NCBI GenBank assembly: GCA_013152435.1
Contig: JAADGJ010000024.1
Span: 1 to 44,194, forward strand
Direction of reading: 5' to 3'
DNA: 44,194 bases
Origin: Chloroflexota bacterium
GTDB taxonomy: Bacteria > Chloroflexota > Anaerolineae > DUEN01
Part shown: piece by piece, positions 10,929-28,157 of the stretch
How the letters are laid out: each line of letters starts with the position of its first letter
Numbering within the stretch: the first letter of the stretch is position 1
Position numbers and translations under genes: made by a program
Notes under the pieces: generated by a model
The model's input: the letters and a program-made list of their open reading frames with translations, nothing else
The model's database searches: none
What the model was told of the DNA's origin: nothing

Positions 10929-10957
10929 TTGACACCCGCGCGGCCGGATGCTATAAT
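10929..10957 (+). promoter_or_regulatory. Near-perfect sigma70 promoter of sugar ABC operon 1
   Basis: TTGACA (10929-10934), a 17-bp spacer and TATAAT (10952-10957) match both consensus hexamers exactly. The first gene starts at 11296, leaving a leader of about 330 nt. A strong constitutive core promoter in a sugar operon suggests control by a repressor or by the leader. No operator was identified. Confidence 0.85.
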
Positions 10958-11295: not shown

Positions 11296-12651
11296 ATGGA
11301 CGCGCTTTCCAACAAACGTATCAGCCGCCGCAAGATGTTGAAGCTGTTGGGTGCCGGCGCCACCGCCGCTTATGTGGCTGCCTGTGCACCGCCCGCAGCC
11401 CCCGCACCGGCCGAGGCCCCTAAAGCACCGGCGGTCTCCAAGGGAAAGCCTTTCGAGGGGATCACGTTGAACACCCTGGGCGGCCCTGATCCCACGGGGT
11501 GGGAAGCCAAGGAGAACGCCCTGTTCGAGGAGAAGTACGGCGCCAAGGTGAACGTCACCACGGTCCCGTATGGCGAGCAGCGACAGAAGCTCACCACGGC
11601 CTTCATGACGGGCGGCTCCGCGTACGATTTCTTCGTCATCGACTGCATCGAGGTCCCCGAGTACGTGGAGGCCGGCTGGGTGCTGGATATCACGGACTGG
11701 GTCACCGACGAGATGAAGCAGGACCTGCTCCCCTTCGCGGCCGACGGGATGATGTACAAGGGCCGATGGTATGGGCTGCCGTGGATCTCCGAGTGGAAAT
11801 CCTTCGTCTACAACGAGGCGCACCTGGAGAAGGCGGGGATCAGCGAGCTCGCCACGACCTGGGATCAGTTCGTCAAGGACTGCCAGACGCTTCAGGAGAA
11901 AGGCGTGGTCCCCAAGTATGCCACGGCCTGGTCCTGGCTGCAGGGTGAGGCGATCATCTGCGATTTCGTCGCCCTGGCCGTCAGCTTCGGCGGGCAGTTC
12001 TTCGACGAGGACCAGAACCCGTTGTTCAACGGCGAGGGCGCTGTGAACGCGCTCCAGTTTATGCGAGACACCATTTACGAGTACAAGATCACCAACCCCG
12101 CCTCGCTCACCTGGTCCGAACGCGAGGTGGACGACGCCGCCTACGCAGGTGATATCTCCTACTTCCTCAAGTGGGGGCTGCCCCTGATCCCGCTCAACAA
12201 CCCGGAGATCTCCAAGGTCGTGGGGCAGTGCCAGATCGGCCTGCTGCCCTCCTATGACGGACAGCACACGGCCACGTGCTCCGGCCCCATGGGGTTGGCC
12301 ATCTCCTCCGGCTCCAAGCATAAGGAGGCCGCCTGGGCCTATCTGCAGTTCCGGGCCGGGCGTGAGGGGGCCAAGCGCAACGCGATCGGCGCGGGCATCG
12401 TCCCCGGGTGGGCCTCGCTGTTCAAGGATCCGGAGGTGTTGGAGGCCATCCCCGGCCTCGACCTCATGCTGGAGCAGGCCAAGCATGTGGTCAACCGGCC
12501 GCGCGTCCCCTGGTACTACGAGTTCTCCACCACCCTCCAGGTGGAGCTCCAGAACGCGCTGACCGACAAGAAGTCTCCACAGGAGGCCCTGGACGACGCC
12601 GTCGCCAAGACGCTGGAGATCAAGGAGAAGTTCGAGTCCAAGAAGGGCTAG
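11296..12651 (+). CDS. Sugar ABC transporter substrate-binding lipoprotein (CUT1)
   Basis: The 451-aa protein belongs to extracellular solute-binding family 1. The N-terminus carries a twin-arginine signal (ISRRKMLKLLG, RR at 11-12) and a lipobox with C30 (YVAAC). An Ala/Pro-rich tether to about residue 48 follows. The rest is a typical bilobal sugar-binding fold (YGLPWISEWKSFVYNEAHLE; ATCSGPMGLAISSGSKHKEA). It would capture an oligosaccharide or glycoside outside the membrane and deliver it to the two permeases encoded next. It is the first gene after a strong promoter and is followed by a stable hairpin, which fits high expression relative to the permeases. The ligand is unknown; the linked GH4 enzyme suggests an alpha-linked or phosphorylated glycoside. 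Confidence 0.95.
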   Translation: MDALSNKRISRRKMLKLLGAGATAAYVAACAPPAAPAPAEAPKAPAVSKGKPFEGITLNTLGGPDPTGWEAKENALFEEKYGAKVNVTTVPYGEQRQKLTTAFMTGGSAYDFFVIDCIEVPEYVEAGWVLDITDWVTDEMKQDLLPFAADGMMYKGRWYGLPWISEWKSFVYNEAHLEKAGISELATTWDQFVKDCQTLQEKGVVPKYATAWSWLQGEAIICDFVALAVSFGGQFFDEDQNPLFNGEGAVNALQFMRDTIYEYKITNPASLTWSEREVDDAAYAGDISYFLKWGLPLIPLNNPEISKVVGQCQIGLLPSYDGQHTATCSGPMGLAISSGSKHKEAAWAYLQFRAGREGAKRNAIGAGIVPGWASLFKDPEVLEAIPGLDLMLEQAKHVVNRPRVPWYYEFSTTLQVELQNALTDKKSPQEALDDAVAKTLEIKEKFESKKG

Positions 12652-12776: not shown

Positions 12777-13727
12777 ATGTCGAGGATGGCCATGCGATCA
12801 GAGACCAAAAGGGACCCCAGACCACGCCTTCCTGCCCATCGTGGGTTGCGCCTGAGCAAGCGGCAATTCGGGATCCTGCTTGTATTGCCCAGCTTCCTCA
12901 TCGTCTTCGTCACACTGGTTTACCCACTGGTCTACTCCATCTACATCACCTTCCACGACATGAACGTCACCCGGCCGGCCATCGGGCCGCAGTTCGTGGG
13001 ATTTGACAATTATGTCGAGGTTCTACAGAACAAAGAGTTCTGGCAGGCGCTGCTACGCACTGCCTACTTCGTCCTGTACGACATCTTCGTGGGCATGCCG
13101 CTGGGGCTGGCCATCGCCCTGCTGCTCAACCAGCGCTTCGCCGGGCGCGGCATCGTACGGGCATTGATCCTGATCCCCTACGTGTTGCCGGGCACGGTGA
13201 ACGGCCTCCTCTGGAAGTGGATCTACAACTCCGATTACGGCTCGCTGAATGCGCTTCTCCAACAACTGGGGCTCATTCAGGAGTATATCCCGTGGCTGTC
13301 CCGCCCCACGCTGGCGCTGCACATGCTGATCCTGGCCAACCTATGGCAGGGGACCCCCTTCGCCATCCTGCTATACCTGGCCGGCCTGCAGACGATCCCG
13401 CGAGATCTGTATGAGGCCGCCACCGTTGACGGCGCCAGCGCGTGGCAGTCGTTCCGCAACATCACCCTGCCGCTGCTAACGCCGATCACGCTGGTCATGG
13501 CCGTGCTGAAGACCATCGCTACCTTCAAGATCTTCGACATCGTCTACGTGCTCACGGGCGGCGGCCCGGCCAACTCGACACAGGTGGTGAGCTATTACAT
13601 CTTCATCAACTCATTCAAGTTCCTGAACATCGGACTGGGCGCGGCCATGTCCTACGTTCTGACGCTGATCATCTTGGGCTTGGTGATCATCTACTATCGC
13701 CTGTTGAGCACGGAAGTGTCCTATTAG
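12777..13727 (+). CDS. CUT1 sugar ABC permease (MalF/UgpA-like)
   Basis: The protein has 316 aa if started at 12777. In-frame ATGs at 12786 and 12792 are equally possible, and GAGG at 12782-12785 favours 12792. Six transmembrane helices are expected: LLVLPSFLIVFVTLVYPLVY is the first. The EAA-type loop that contacts the ATPase is present (LYEAATVDGASAWQSFRNIT). It forms the membrane channel with the next gene product. No ATPase is encoded in the operon, so a shared MsiK/UgpC-type ATPase from elsewhere is presumably used. Confidence 0.95.
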   Translation: MSRMAMRSETKRDPRPRLPAHRGLRLSKRQFGILLVLPSFLIVFVTLVYPLVYSIYITFHDMNVTRPAIGPQFVGFDNYVEVLQNKEFWQALLRTAYFVLYDIFVGMPLGLAIALLLNQRFAGRGIVRALILIPYVLPGTVNGLLWKWIYNSDYGSLNALLQQLGLIQEYIPWLSRPTLALHMLILANLWQGTPFAILLYLAGLQTIPRDLYEAATVDGASAWQSFRNITLPLLTPITLVMAVLKTIATFKIFDIVYVLTGGGPANSTQVVSYYIFINSFKFLNIGLGAAMSYVLTLIILGLVIIYYRLLSTEVSY

Positions 13728-13761: not shown

Positions 13762-14655
13762 ATGAGCACGACAGCGATCTCCCGACCACGGCTCTCCAGA
13801 CGCCAACGCAAGCTGCTGCGAGGGATTATCCTGTATTTCCTGGTCCTGCTGGTTGTGCTGTATACCCTCGCCCCGGTCGTCTGGCTGGTGATCTCCAGCA
13901 TCACCCCGCTGACCGACCTGCTCACGATCCCGCTGCGCTGGATCCCGCGCCATCCTACCTTTAAGAACTATCAGGCCATCATCGCCGCCACGCCTCAGAC
14001 GGCCGGCGTGAACTATCAATTCAAGGTCGCCTTATGGAACAGCCTGGTCGTCAGCCTGGGCGTCACCCTGCTGTGCCTGGTCACCGGGTCCATGGCCGCC
14101 TACGCCTTCGCCCGGCTGGACATGCCATTCAAGGACCGGCTGGTCTTCATCCTGCTCTTCACTCAGATGCTGCCAGGCATCGCCATCCTGATCCCGCTCT
14201 TCCTGATCGGCAGCCGTCTGCACATGCTGGATCGTCGCATCACGCTGATCATCGTCTACTGCTCCTTTACCCTGCCGTTCATCGTGTGGATGATGCGAGG
14301 CTATTTTGAGACGATCCCCAAGGATCTGGAGGATGCGGCCATGATCGATGGCTGCTCCCAGATCGGCACGCTATTCCGGGTGGTCATCCCGCTCTCCACG
14401 CCCGGCCTGTTCGCCACTGGCGTGTTCGCCTTCCTGGGCGCCTGGAACGAGTTCATGATCGCGCTGGCGCTGACCAACACCCTGGCCTCGAAGACGATGC
14501 CGGTGGCGCTGGCGGAGTTCATCGGCCGATTCACCGTGGACTACGGGCTCATGAGCACTGTGGGCGTGATCGCCTCCCTGCCGCCTATCCTGCTGGCCCT
14601 GGCCTTCCAGCGCTACCTGTTGGAGGGGCTGACCAGCGGCGCCGTGAAGGGCTGA
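13762..14655 (+). CDS. CUT1 sugar ABC permease (MalG/UgpE-like)
   Basis: The 297-aa protein is the second channel subunit. The first helix is IILYFLVLLVVLYTLAPVVW. The EAA loop reads PKDLEDAAMIDGCSQIGTLF, followed by the conserved LGAWNEFMIAL segment. The start at 13762 follows an AAGGGGG site and lies 34 bp after the upstream permease gene. Confidence 0.95.
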   Translation: MSTTAISRPRLSRRQRKLLRGIILYFLVLLVVLYTLAPVVWLVISSITPLTDLLTIPLRWIPRHPTFKNYQAIIAATPQTAGVNYQFKVALWNSLVVSLGVTLLCLVTGSMAAYAFARLDMPFKDRLVFILLFTQMLPGIAILIPLFLIGSRLHMLDRRITLIIVYCSFTLPFIVWMMRGYFETIPKDLEDAAMIDGCSQIGTLFRVVIPLSTPGLFATGVFAFLGAWNEFMIALALTNTLASKTMPVALAEFIGRFTVDYGLMSTVGVIASLPPILLALAFQRYLLEGLTSGAVKG

Positions 14656-14706
14656 TCCAGCCGCCCACAGTTCCAATATCCTGCCTTTCGATAGGAGATG
14701 GTTCAC

Positions 14707-16095
14707 ATGCTACCGACCAAGATCACTGTCATCGGCGCAGGCAGCGCCGCCTTCGGGCTCAACACGCTGGCCGCCCTCATGCGCAGCGAACGGCTGCACG
14801 GCAGCCAGCTCGCGCTGGTAGATCGCAATGCGGAGACGCTCGATCTGGTGGCCCGGCTGGCCCAACGCCTGAACCGGGAGTGGGACGCCCAGATGACGAT
14901 CACCACGCACACGCACCACGCGGAGGCCCTGGAAGGAACCGAGTTCGTCGTCTCCGCCATCGAGGTCCCTCCCCGAGAGGAGTTATGGCGATCGGACTAC
15001 GAGATCCCTCTCAAGTACGGCGTGCGCCAGCCTTACGGGGAGAACGGCGGCCCGGGCGGCTTCGCACACGCCGCCCGGAACATCGGCCCGGTGATGGAGA
15101 TCGTGCGTGACATGGAGCTGGCGTGTCCCGACGCCTGGTACATCAACTTTACCAACCCGATGATCCGCATCTGCGACGCCATCGCCCGATATAGCAAGAT
15201 CAAGGTGGTGGGGCTATGCCACCAGATCCACGCCGGATACGGCATGGTCGGGTACGCCCTGGCCGAGGATCTGGGGATCGAGGTCCCCGAGGGGGTCGTC
15301 TCCACCCACGCGGACCCGAGGACCTGGCCGCCGTTGATCGAGGTGGCGCGGCAGGCCATGAAGCGGATCGATATCAAGGCCGCCGGCCTCAATCACTTCA
15401 CCTGGATGCTGGACGTGCGAGACAAGCGCACCGGCGAGGACCTCTATCCCCTCTTCGCCGAGCGCTGGGCCGCGCTGGACCCGTCGTTCGAGCCGCTCAC
15501 CCGGCGCGTGTACGAGGCCATGAGGCTGTTCCCCATCCCCGGGGACGAGCACCTCTGTGAGTACCTGCCCTGGGTGAGCGACCCCATCACCAAGCCGTGG
15601 GAGAAATACGACATCAGCCTGTATGATTGGGACCTGTGGGACGAGCGGCGCGAGAACCTCCATGAGGTCATCGCCCGCATGGCGGACGGGGAGACGAGCC
15701 TCGATCGGCTGCACGATGCCGATAGCGAGGGGGCGCTGGAGATCATCGAGAGCATCGCCGGGGCCGGGAACCACTACCACCTGGCCGTCAACGTCCCGAA
15801 TCAGGGGCTCATCAGCAACCTGCCGGAGGGCGCCATCGTCGAGGTGCCGGGGCTGGTCAGCGGCCTGGGCGTGCGAGGGATCAGCGTGGGCGCGCTACCG
15901 GAGCCTGTGGCCGAGCTATGCCGTCGTGAGATCACCGTCGCCCGGCTGTGTGTGGACGCGGCCGTGAACGGCGATCGCCAGGCCGCCCTGCAGTGCCTGC
16001 TGCTGGATCCCGTCATCACCGACCTGGACGTGGCCCGACAGGTCCTGGATGATTACCTGCAGACATATCGCGAGTATCTGCCACAATTCTGGTAG
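14707..16095 (+). CDS. Glycoside hydrolase family 4 (NAD- and metal-dependent)
   Basis: The protein has 462 aa. ATG 14707 lies 9 nt after AGGAG (14693-14697); the ATG at 14698 is too close to it. The Rossmann motif is at the N-terminus ([10 protein letters not shown]). GH4 enzymes cleave glycosides by an oxidation-elimination mechanism using NAD and Mn. The metal ligands are visible as C171-H172 in GLCHQIH and H230 in GLNHFTW. The family tetrapeptide after the cysteine is normally used to sort specificities (CHS alpha-galactosidase, CHE alpha-glucosidase, CHG glucuronidase, CN/CD phospho-sugars). Here it is CHQI, which fits none of these. As the last gene of the transporter operon it probably acts on the imported glycoside in the cytoplasm. 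Confidence 0.93.
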
Positions 16096-19795: not shown

Positions 19796-20584
19796 TTAAC
19801 GGCGGTAGATACGCTCGTTGAAAGCGGCATAGACCTCCGGCGCCGACCGATCCTCCTTCACGGCCCTCAGGATCTCCGCCAACTCGGCCACCAACGCCTC
19901 AAATAGCGCCTTCCCCTTCTCGGCCGTGGCCGGCCGAGGATCGCCCGCGCAATGTTCTGGGAAGCGGCTGAACCAATCGGCCGGCGTGTATAGCCGCTCG
20001 CCGAGCTCGCCAAGCCGATTCTGCGGCGTCCACTGAGACTCTGGGTCCAACGCCTCCATTTTCACGAATTGCGGGTAAAGATGGAGCGCCATGCTGGTCT
20101 CGCACTCGCAGGCGTGGCCATGCACCTCCGTTTCCATCACCTGACGATGCACCTCGGGCGCGCTGACACCGCGCACGAAGTAAAGCGTGTAATCCTTCCC
20201 CTTATCGAGCATGAGCTGAACGAACAGCGGCAGGAAGAAGCGGTTACCGCCGTGCCCGCTGAGCAGGACGATCTTCTTCAGCCCATTGCGGCTGATCTCA
20301 TCGCATACGTTCTCCAGGAGCTCGAACAGCAGGTGATCCTTGACGACGATCCCGCCGGGGAAGTGCTTCGTCTCCGTGTTCACACCGAAGTGATAGGACG
20401 GGAACACGATGACCGGCTCCCGACGCGCCGCCTCACAGGCCAGGGCGTGAACGGTGAAGGAGTCCGTACCCAGCGGGAGATGAGGCCCGTGATATTCGAT
20501 CACGCCGATGGGAATCACACACACGCCGGCCGCCTTCTCCACGGCCGCCTCGAACTCGCCGCCCGTCAGTTGTTCCCACTGCAT
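19796..20584 (-). CDS. Creatininase-family amidohydrolase
   Basis: The protein has 262 aa. Family metal-binding motifs are present: EYHGPHLPLGTD at about 30-41, SGHGGN at about 109-114, and HACECETS at about 155-162. The last stands where the family usually has HAGxxETS. Members hydrolyse cyclic or linear amides (creatinine, FAPy-type intermediates, mycofactocin peptide MftE). The substrate is not identifiable here. The start follows GGAGG at 7 nt. It lies alone between two MITE copies, which separate it from both neighbours. Confidence 0.92.
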   Translation of the reverse strand: MQWEQLTGGEFEAAVEKAAGVCVIPIGVIEYHGPHLPLGTDSFTVHALACEAARREPVIVFPSYHFGVNTETKHFPGGIVVKDHLLFELLENVCDEISRNGLKKIVLLSGHGGNRFFLPLFVQLMLDKGKDYTLYFVRGVSAPEVHRQVMETEVHGHACECETSMALHLYPQFVKMEALDPESQWTPQNRLGELGERLYTPADWFSRFPEHCAGDPRPATAEKGKALFEALVAELAEILRAVKEDRSAPEVYAAFNERIYRR

Positions 20585-26741: not shown

Positions 26742-28157
26742 TTATCCCTCGTGGTAATACACGTCCCACCCGAAATACGTCTCGAACGCCTCGGCCAGGA
26801 TGGCCGCCGAGCGCGATGGGTTCATGGCGACATGGTGTTCGAAGCCGTTCTTGCAGACATGCCGCAGGAGCTTTTGTAGGCCCGGCACCTCCACCACGGC
26901 ACGGCTGCCGAAGGTATCCAGCGGATCGTCGGTGAACGTGCCATCGCCCACATAGGTGCGGATCACACCGTTCCGATCGTCCGTGGTGATCCGAGCGAAA
27001 CTCACGGGGCCGGCAGGCACGCGGCCGGCGATGGCCCCGTACGTGTTCTCCCTCCCCAGCATCGTGGCCAGCACATCGGCGTAGGCCATCCTCGCCTCCG
27101 GGAAGAAGCTCCGGGCCCAGTTGCCGCAGTGGAACAGGACGCACTTGTTCGGGTCGCCGCCGTAGTTGTTGTTCCAGTCCACCAGCGCGCTGGGCTTGCC
27201 GGAGGCCAGCTGCAGCGCATACATGGAGGCCACGCCGGTGATATCCACCTCGCAGGCGCTGGGCATCAGCTTCTCGCTCATCATGCTCATGAGCGTGCAT
27301 ACGTTGACCCCGTAATTCTGCTGCACCGAGGTCCAGCACTGGATGGCGGTCGCGTCGAGGTCGTTGGCAGCCATCCAGTCATCGATGACGATGCCCAGCT
27401 TGGCCATCTTGACCAGCGCGGGCGAGGGCACACCCTCGGCCGGGAGATACGCCTGGATCTCCTCCAGACGCTGTTTCACCTTCGGGTCGTCGTCGGCCAG
27501 CTTATCGGCCGCGCCGAACACCTCGGAGAGATCGATGGTGCTGACGGTGATGCCATAGGCCTGGAGCAGTTTCTCGCTGAAGCGCACAGTGTTGAAGGCG
27601 TTGGGACGCGCGCCCACGGCGCCCAGCCGGGCGTTTCGCAGCCCCTTCATCACGCGACAGACGCCCACGAACTTCTGCAGATCGGCCTTGAACTCGTCAC
27701 TGGTCGGGTGTACCGTGTGCAGCTCGGTCAGCGTGAACGGGAAGCCGTATTGGCGCAGGTTGTTGCATACGGAGATCTTGCCGCAGAAGGCATCTCGGCG
27801 CCGCTCCACATGGAACCCGTCCAGATCATCGGGATAGGCCTGGACCAGGATGGGCACGTCGAGGCCGGACAGCTTGATCGTGTCCGCCACGCCCTTCTCG
27901 TCGCCGAAGTTGGGCAGCACGACCAGGATACCGTCGATCCTATCCTGATTCGCCTTGAACAGCGCGGCGCACTTCTTGGCATCCTCCCAGGTCTCCACAC
28001 CACCCAGCTTGGTGTCCGTCTCGCCCAGGATCACCGCGTCGATGTTCATCTCGTCCAGGACCTTCAAAATGTCCTGCCTCGCCTCGGTGACCAGCACGTC
28101 GGGGAAGAAATCCCGGTTACCGATGATGACGCCCAGCGTGACCTTTCCCTGCTCCAT
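26742..28157 (-). CDS. L-fucose/L-arabinose isomerase-family protein
   Basis: The 471-aa protein has the FucI/AraA-type architecture. The N-terminal Rossmann-like domains include [14 protein letters not shown] and [13 protein letters not shown]. The C-terminal catalytic region includes [28 protein letters not shown] and [10 protein letters not shown]. These enzymes interconvert an aldose and a ketose with Mn. In this branch the sugar is not predictable. The FGGY kinase and the second ABC transporter in the same direction would complete import, isomerisation and phosphorylation. The start follows AAAGGAG. Confidence 0.9.

Follow-up and report, generated by a model that had tools for sequence, protein, structure and literature searches.

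A CHQ-marked branch of GH4 in Anaerolineae and a candidate GH4 sulfoquinovosidase in its sister branch

The specificity of GH4 enzymes is often guessed from the tetrapeptide at the metal-binding cysteine, in a scheme that assigns substrates to the motifs CDMP, CNVP, CHS and CHG. We analyzed a 44,194-nucleotide stretch of DNA from an uncultured Chloroflexota bacterium of the Anaerolineae (hereafter the window; its genome is a 4.97 Mb draft), in which a GH4 gene carries CHQI at this site. The first-pass annotation had called this motif atypical and outside the known tetrapeptide groups, and had considered a different glycoside specificity plausible. The questions raised by this locus are whether CHQ is peculiar to one gene or marks a group, and on what kind of glycoside such an enzyme would act.

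The CHQI gene and its neighbours in the window

The GH4 gene is the last of four co-oriented genes, behind those for a solute-binding protein and two ABC permeases. The features are as follows.

10929 to 10957, + strand: sigma-70-type promoter match, 12/12 with TG extension, a consensus match only (the scan found 2 matches against 1.2 expected at its threshold)
11296 to 12651, + strand: extracellular solute-binding protein (PF01547, 133 bits)
12777 to 13727, + strand: ABC permease 1, carbohydrate type (PF00528)
13762 to 14655, + strand: ABC permease 2, carbohydrate type (PF00528)
14693 to 14697, + strand: AGGAG, ribosome-binding-like site for ATG 14707
14707 to 16095, + strand: GH4 gene, 462 aa, CHQI type (ORF, PF02056 and PF11975, structure model)
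15217 to 15228, + strand: C171-H172-Q173-I174 tetrapeptide, codons TGC CAC CAG ATC
15385 to 15405, + strand: GGCCTCAATCACTTCACCTGG (GLNHFTW), codons read in frame

The GH4 frame is intact, and both GH4 Pfam domains of its protein exceed their curated cut-offs (PF02056, 153.6 bits against 23.2; PF11975, 144.6 bits against 24.1). The mechanical ORF begins at ATG 14698, which the AGGAG directly abuts; since this site is well spaced for ATG 14707, the latter is the likely start, and residue numbers such as C171 count from it. Both the CHQI codons and the GLNHFTW region agree with the first-pass annotation, the latter reaching slightly beyond the end given there (15400). By GH4 family knowledge, C171 would be one metal ligand and H230 in GLNHFTW the second, in the manner of Cys162 and His192, the metal ligands of BglT (passages of PMC10755693). 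The NAD-binding Gly motif, the metal Cys and His and the NP Asn are all present, and G10, S13, N150, C171, N229 and H230 are invariant in a 76-row alignment.

A second sugar-catabolism region lies on the minus strand at 19796 to 44151, with creatininase-like, PfkB kinase, Zn-dehydrogenase, M55 peptidase, apiosidase-like, DRL oxidoreductase, FGGY kinase, ABC importer, SIS and PdxA-like genes, and a fucose-isomerase-like gene (26742 to 28157, minus strand) whose score with the sulfoquinovose isomerase (SftI) model is 99 bits, against a cut-off of 700. Rfam gave no match at gathering score within the window. The genome as a whole has eight GH4 genes. Besides the CHQI gene of the window, these are three of the CHSV type, one each with CHEM and CNLP, and two in which the metal motif is altered (LCTCAS and LCIGV; L098:4722-6050 and L100:3642-4958).

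By analogy with its family, the most likely activity of the window enzyme is cleavage, by redox-elimination, of a glycoside that is imported and unphosphorylated. The co-oriented ABC importer would bring a small glycoside into the cell, where the GH4 enzyme, probably cytoplasmic, would oxidize the substrate at C3 with bound NAD+. The metal on Cys171 and His230 would then help to remove the proton from C2 and to eliminate the aglycone, and hydration followed by reduction would free the sugar, as in the redox-elimination mechanism of GH4 (passages of PMC10628242).

CHQ and the residues that accompany it

Motif counts were drawn from 179 distinct aligned GH4 proteins. At an identity of at least 62% to the window protein (n = 93, itself included), 91 proteins carry CHQI and two CHQV; at an identity of at least 38% (n = 140), CHQ is found in 135, CHG in three, and CLG and SRS in one each. 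The motifs of the reference proteins are CHSV (E. coli MelA), CNIP (ChbF), CHEV (LplD), CHGH (T. maritima AglA) and CDMP (6dux). The CHQ of the window, which recurs in close relatives, is neither chance nor a read error, and, rather than being atypical as had been supposed, it is the usual motif in a large branch of Anaerolineae. A class-wide search matched the window protein in 230 of 298 genomes at E 0.001, and a phylum search at E 1e-60 matched 28 of 301 genomes, four of them outside the class. Among relatives in named genomes, all 80 kept of 270 bear Chloroflexota titles, and two named strains, Anaerolinea thermolimosa IMO-1 and Levilinea saccharolytica KIBI-1, have window-branch members with intact CHQI. 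The former also has a 157-residue GH4-like fragment directly 5' of its intact CHQI gene (L132:7899-8369), and an orthologue elsewhere (G561:C10:189078-190454, L209) has one in-frame TAA. Metal-site residues are lost in four GH4 paralogues, which are possible pseudo-enzymes: L094 (GLSRS with LNRF), L096 (GLSHH), L216 (GLCPR with NLADP) and L235 (GVPAQ with GLHGL).

Trees were computed without the tetrapeptide columns and with MelA, LplD, AglA, ChbF and 6dux as placed references, TM0752 not being among the rows. In a quick tree, the window protein falls within an all-CHQ clade of 44 rows (support 100), itself inside a larger clade of 61 rows (support 99). This larger clade has 59 rows and support of 100/100 in a careful tree, in which one row labelled 'phospho' (L145_4985) is a window-branch CHQI protein, so that the 'core' and 'phospho' counts are shifted and the outgroup is not clean. 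MelA, LplD, ChbF and 6dux lie outside the larger clade in both trees and AglA in the quick tree. In the careful tree, the MelA clade is separate from that of the window (100/100), and LplD with its CHE relatives forms another clade (99/93). The window protein thus groups with none of the five references and, within the references placed, sits in no characterized clade; its assignment outside the known tetrapeptide groups stood, and the placement that was to count against it was not found. The larger clade also holds CHG and CLG members, including a protein from an Azospirillum plasmid, and Q173 therefore marks a branch within it. Because the third motif position varies in this wider clade, Q173, as read from the alignments, is first of all a clade marker; a different glycoside specificity stays plausible but is not proven by the motif.

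Four further sites accompany CHQ.

14974 to 14976, + strand: Arg90, kept in the window branch, the CHQL branch (below) and the Azospirillum protein, absent in the five references
15040 to 15051, + strand: ENGG (E112-G115) with Asn113, which is Thr in the five references
15067 to 15069, + strand: His121, at least 95% in both branches, Arg, Lys or Tyr in references
15166 to 15168, + strand: Arg154, right behind the NPM motif, absent in the five references

Arg90, Asn113 and Arg154 are common to the window clade and the Azospirillum protein, while His121 has exceptions (Arg in L063, Phe in Azospirillum). Of the positions that are 90% conserved within both the window and the CHQL branch, only 14 differ between the two, among them E86Q, L93V, A122T, I155L, C156T and Y306Q. 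On sequence grounds, the window GH4 is assigned to an uncharacterized GH4 subfamily marked by CHQ, Arg90, Asn113 and Arg154, in which we infer from their conservation that Arg90 and Arg154 would read a C6 anion of the substrate. The substrate of the window enzyme is probably not a 6-phosphosugar, and we propose tentatively that it may well carry another C6 anion, a sulfonate or a carboxylate.

The neighbourhoods of the window branch gave no common pathway across 85 loci, and none of the 85 had a gene of the SftI, SftT (sulfofructose transaldolase) or SuyAB (sulfolactate lyase) families within 8 kb, in a scan with earlier query sequences of these families that covered loci of at least 5 kb (15 shorter ones were set aside) and neighbours in frames clear of the GH4 frame. 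Importer genes were found near 12 of the 85, many loci being cut by contig ends. In addition, five loci (L050, L053, L146, L155 and L179) have a CN-type GH4 gene near the window-branch gene on the same strand, with a Gfo/Idh/MocA gene between the two in L053 and L146, and thus hold two different GH4 enzymes in one operon; in L141, the neighbouring second GH4 is of the CHG type.

CHQL relatives and sulfoquinovose catabolism

Sulfoquinovose is a plant sulfosugar and a very abundant organosulfur sugar. Homologues of genes for its catabolism stand beside GH4 in the CHQL sub-branch and not beside the window gene. This sub-branch comprises 15 GH4 proteins with at least 55% identity to that of L077, which form one clade in the careful tree (100/100), and 13 of the 15 loci have at least one SftI-, SftT- or SuyAB-family gene on the contig (exceptions, L078 and L255). 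The set is not blind: five genomes (G162, G261, G271, G220 and G104), already on the class-wide GH4 match list, were fetched after their SftI/SuyB matches had been shown, and two others on that list (G253, 53%; G289, 49%) were left unfetched and unclassified.

The fucose-isomerase-type proteins of L075, L077 and L081 match the sulfoquinovose isomerase model of NCBIfam at 322, 301 and 283 bits (cut-off 700) and no other NCBIfam model in that search; a transaldolase-like neighbour scores 183 bits with the fructose-6-phosphate aldolase/TalC model, short of the cut-off, and a TauE-family exporter adjoins in L075. The lyase-like protein of L068 is accompanied by a separate small subunit, presumably of SAF nature. 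Of 314 records, 13 plasmid ones (Paracoccus, Cupriavidus pinatubonensis, Sinorhizobium mexicanum and others) are 60-64% identical to the lyase-like protein; the remaining 301 do not reach 60%, and the first two listed among them have 36% and 38%. C. pinatubonensis JMP134 is the named source of SuyAB (passages of PMC12890257), and homologues of SuyA and SuyB are listed for S. mexicanum (passages of PMC12421959). The GH188-type protein of L068 scores 216 bits to PDB 8qc2, a GH188 structure (passages of PMC11465081), and 211 bits to 8qc3. Four loci (L074, L077, L248 and L249) have a remoter lyase homologue, at about 240 bits, whose function may not be the same. A uronate pathway, first suggested for these clusters by a galactarate/altronate-dehydratase family match, was rejected because of the small subunit, the identity to the plasmid records, the GH188-type neighbour and the SftI-like isomerases in related loci.

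Other genes at these loci were also observed. LarA-type nickel racemases (L069:1270-2571 and L072:11695-12969; 526 and 542 bits to the LarAH5 malate racemase model, cut-off 462; homologues also in L068, L077, L252, L258 and L259) stand beside SuyAB homologues and are candidate sulfolactate racemases. Homologues of aldehyde ferredoxin oxidoreductase (L068:391-2568, L069:6366-8258, L072:5981-7873 and L251:7734-9494) replace the aldehyde dehydrogenase of L077 and L249 and are candidates for a sulfolactaldehyde-oxidizing step. At the transaldolase place of other CHQL operons, L248:9475-11906 and L074:4456-6808 have a phosphofructokinase-family gene and one like Cgl0159, which we take to be an aldolase, perhaps a kinase/aldolase variant of sulfosugar cleavage.

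Co-occurrence over the 298 class genomes, with SftI counted at E 1e-100 or better and SuyB at E 1e-90, gave SftI in 34 and SuyB in 22 genomes. Among CHQL genomes, 11 of 15 have SftI, against 23 of the 283 others (p 8e-9); the counts are 6/15 vs 16/283 for SuyB (p 3e-4) and 14/15 vs 33/283 for either of them, p-values here and below being only indicative because the genomes are related and mostly drafts and the CHQL set was partly picked after SftI/SuyB matches. For the window branch, neither SftI (5/33 genomes vs 29/265, p 0.32) nor SuyB (4/33 vs 18/265, p 0.22) was associated, and co-occurrence does not support a sulfosugar role for this branch.

These data lead us to favour, somewhat above even, the CHQL sub-branch as a GH4 sulfoquinovosidase in sulfo-transaldolase/SuyAB operons. 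Alternatively, the CHQL GH4 may trim another glycoside, sulfoquinovose being freed in those operons by GH31, GH188 or an unseen enzyme. We regard this as the less likely reading. A GH188 gene does lie beside the CHQL GH4 in L068 and L252 and a GH31 gene in L069 and L073, and an E. coli YihQ query (YihQ is presumably PRK10426) matched 13 of 30 genomes at E 1e-40. Above 400 bits, our own choice of line for YihQ-grade GH31, there are only G163, inside its SftI cluster, and the CHQL genome G271, elsewhere (427 bits), the next match being at 262 bits. GH188 at E 1e-30 was found in 2/15 CHQL genomes, against 12 of the 23 genomes that have SftI but no CHQL GH4 (p 0.017), and in 0/9 further window-branch genomes searched. 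Against the alternative, 12 of the 15 CHQL genomes, mostly drafts, show no GH188 at E 1e-30 and no YihQ match that reaches 400 bits, with weaker YihQ-query matches (183-262 bits) in five of the 12 (G261, G126, G136, G107 and G245). The CHQL clusters are thus mostly without known sulfoquinovosidases, and the branch is a testable candidate for sulfoquinovose release by anaerobic Chloroflexota.

The window enzyme could itself be a sulfoquinovosidase if reading of a C6 sulfonate is common to the whole CHQ clade and the species uses the sugar by another route. Its close kinship with the CHQL branch and the near identity of the two in the pocket region agree with this; we nevertheless consider it unlikely, given the lack of association with SftI or SuyB, the presence of both paralogues in three genomes (G250, G098 and G271) and an own genome in which SftI matches reach only 109 bits and SftT matches 34 bits, and in which searches for SuyB (E 1e-90) and GH188 (E 1e-30) gave nothing, a result that concerns these genes and not other sulfoglycolytic routes. 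The window branch most likely serves a glycoside different from that of the CHQL branch. Glucuronides are not singled out; the strongest lead, from the sister branch only, is sulfoquinovosides.

Among sources from our search, passages of PMC10755693 describe GH188 besides GH31 as a sulfoquinovosidase, with GH4 as a comparison only, passages of PMC13372026 give the sulfoquinovosidase families as 31 and 188, and passages of PMC9594981 report SuyAB in sulfo-transaldolase clusters of Thermotogae and Chloroflexi, in a text that nowhere has the term 'GH4'. Neither a CHQ-type GH4 nor a GH4 sulfoquinovosidase was found in the literature searched. Liu 2020 and Frommeyer 2020, which reportedly describe related clusters, were outside that search. 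With a slight leaning in its favour, we propose that the CHQ-type GH4 clade contains a third sulfoquinovosidase family, in which the CHQL enzymes would free sulfoquinovose by NAD+/metal redox-elimination and supply it to sulfo-transaldolase and SuyAB operons for use of the entire sugar. In GH4, a C6 anion would then be read by CHQ together with Arg90/Arg154, and the window gene would be a paralogue. Taken as a whole, the window GH4 as a glycosidase for an imported, unphosphorylated glycoside and the CHQL branch as a sulfoquinovosidase form the best explanation, which we hold with moderate confidence.

Comparison with known GH4 enzymes and sulfoquinovosidases

The structure model of the window GH4 has a mean pLDDT of 95.6, and the 17 best solved structures by fold are all GH4, the next entry dropping to Z 25.6. 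LplD is first (Z 43.6), also by Foldseek, with phospho-beta-glucosidases at 41.1, AglA at 34.9 and TM0752, of the alpha-glucuronidase type, at 34.8. Such matches to a model support the GH4 fold and not a substrate.

LplD, the alpha-galacturonidase of B. subtilis (PDB 3fef), shares this fold over 415 residues, together with the GD-H-E stretch and the loop length of the unphosphorylated type, and the order SBP-permease-permease-GH4 resembles what we take to be that of lplABCD. An alpha-galacturonidase-like (uronide) enzyme in the manner of LplD would fit these likenesses. This is rather unlikely, however, since LplD has CHEV instead of CHQI and lies in the separate CHE clade, and since its Z score is little above those of other GH4 structures (41.1). 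LplD also lacks Arg90, Asn113 and Arg154 and is 28% identical over the aligned part. The window protein has neither CHEV nor a place in the LplD clade; CHEV is taken here as the mark of the LplD type on the basis of the title of Thompson 2013, which reportedly concerns this motif.

The curated model nearest to the CHQ branch is an alpha-galactosidase. Indeed, the MelA-type model PRK15076 is the best NCBIfam match of the window protein, and automatic annotation as an ordinary alpha-galactosidase, with CHQ as a neutral change, would follow it. We regard this reading as improbable. The match (305.6 bits) is under the cut-off of 486, and E. coli MelA, an alpha-galactosidase and likewise a GH4 with the metal and NAD residues, differs in CHSV, in ESS-H where the window has GDEH, in lacking Arg90 and Arg154, and in its separate clade, with about 28% identity; the window protein has neither CHSV nor a place in the MelA clade. 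Moreover, three other GH4 genes of the own genome, all CHSV, already fall in the MelA clade or close to it.

The 6-phospho-glycosidases (Gan4C 5c3m, 1s6y, GlvA 1u8x and BglT 1up6) have the common fold (Z 38-41) and, like the window GH4, a Glu at the QET/ENGG position, but CN/CD motifs and a loop two residues shorter; phospho-type enzymes (ChbF, 6dux, CN-type) have neither Arg90/Arg154 nor the longer loop. The Azospirillum plasmid GH4 (L243), annotated as alpha-glucosidase/alpha-galactosidase, shares Arg90, Asn113, Arg154 and the wider clade, but has CHGI and Phe at 121 and is 37% identical; we know of no activity for it. A coherent and large Chloroflexota branch falls outside the scheme by which GH4 specificity is often guessed.

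Finally, the two sulfoquinovosidase families, whose reaction is that predicted for the CHQL branch, are unrelated to GH4. GH188 (SqgA) is NAD+-dependent and oxidizes C3, but it is Gfo/Idh-like and metal-independent (passages of PMC10755693). The GH31 sulfoquinovosidase YihQ, unlike GH4, is a classical hydrolase.
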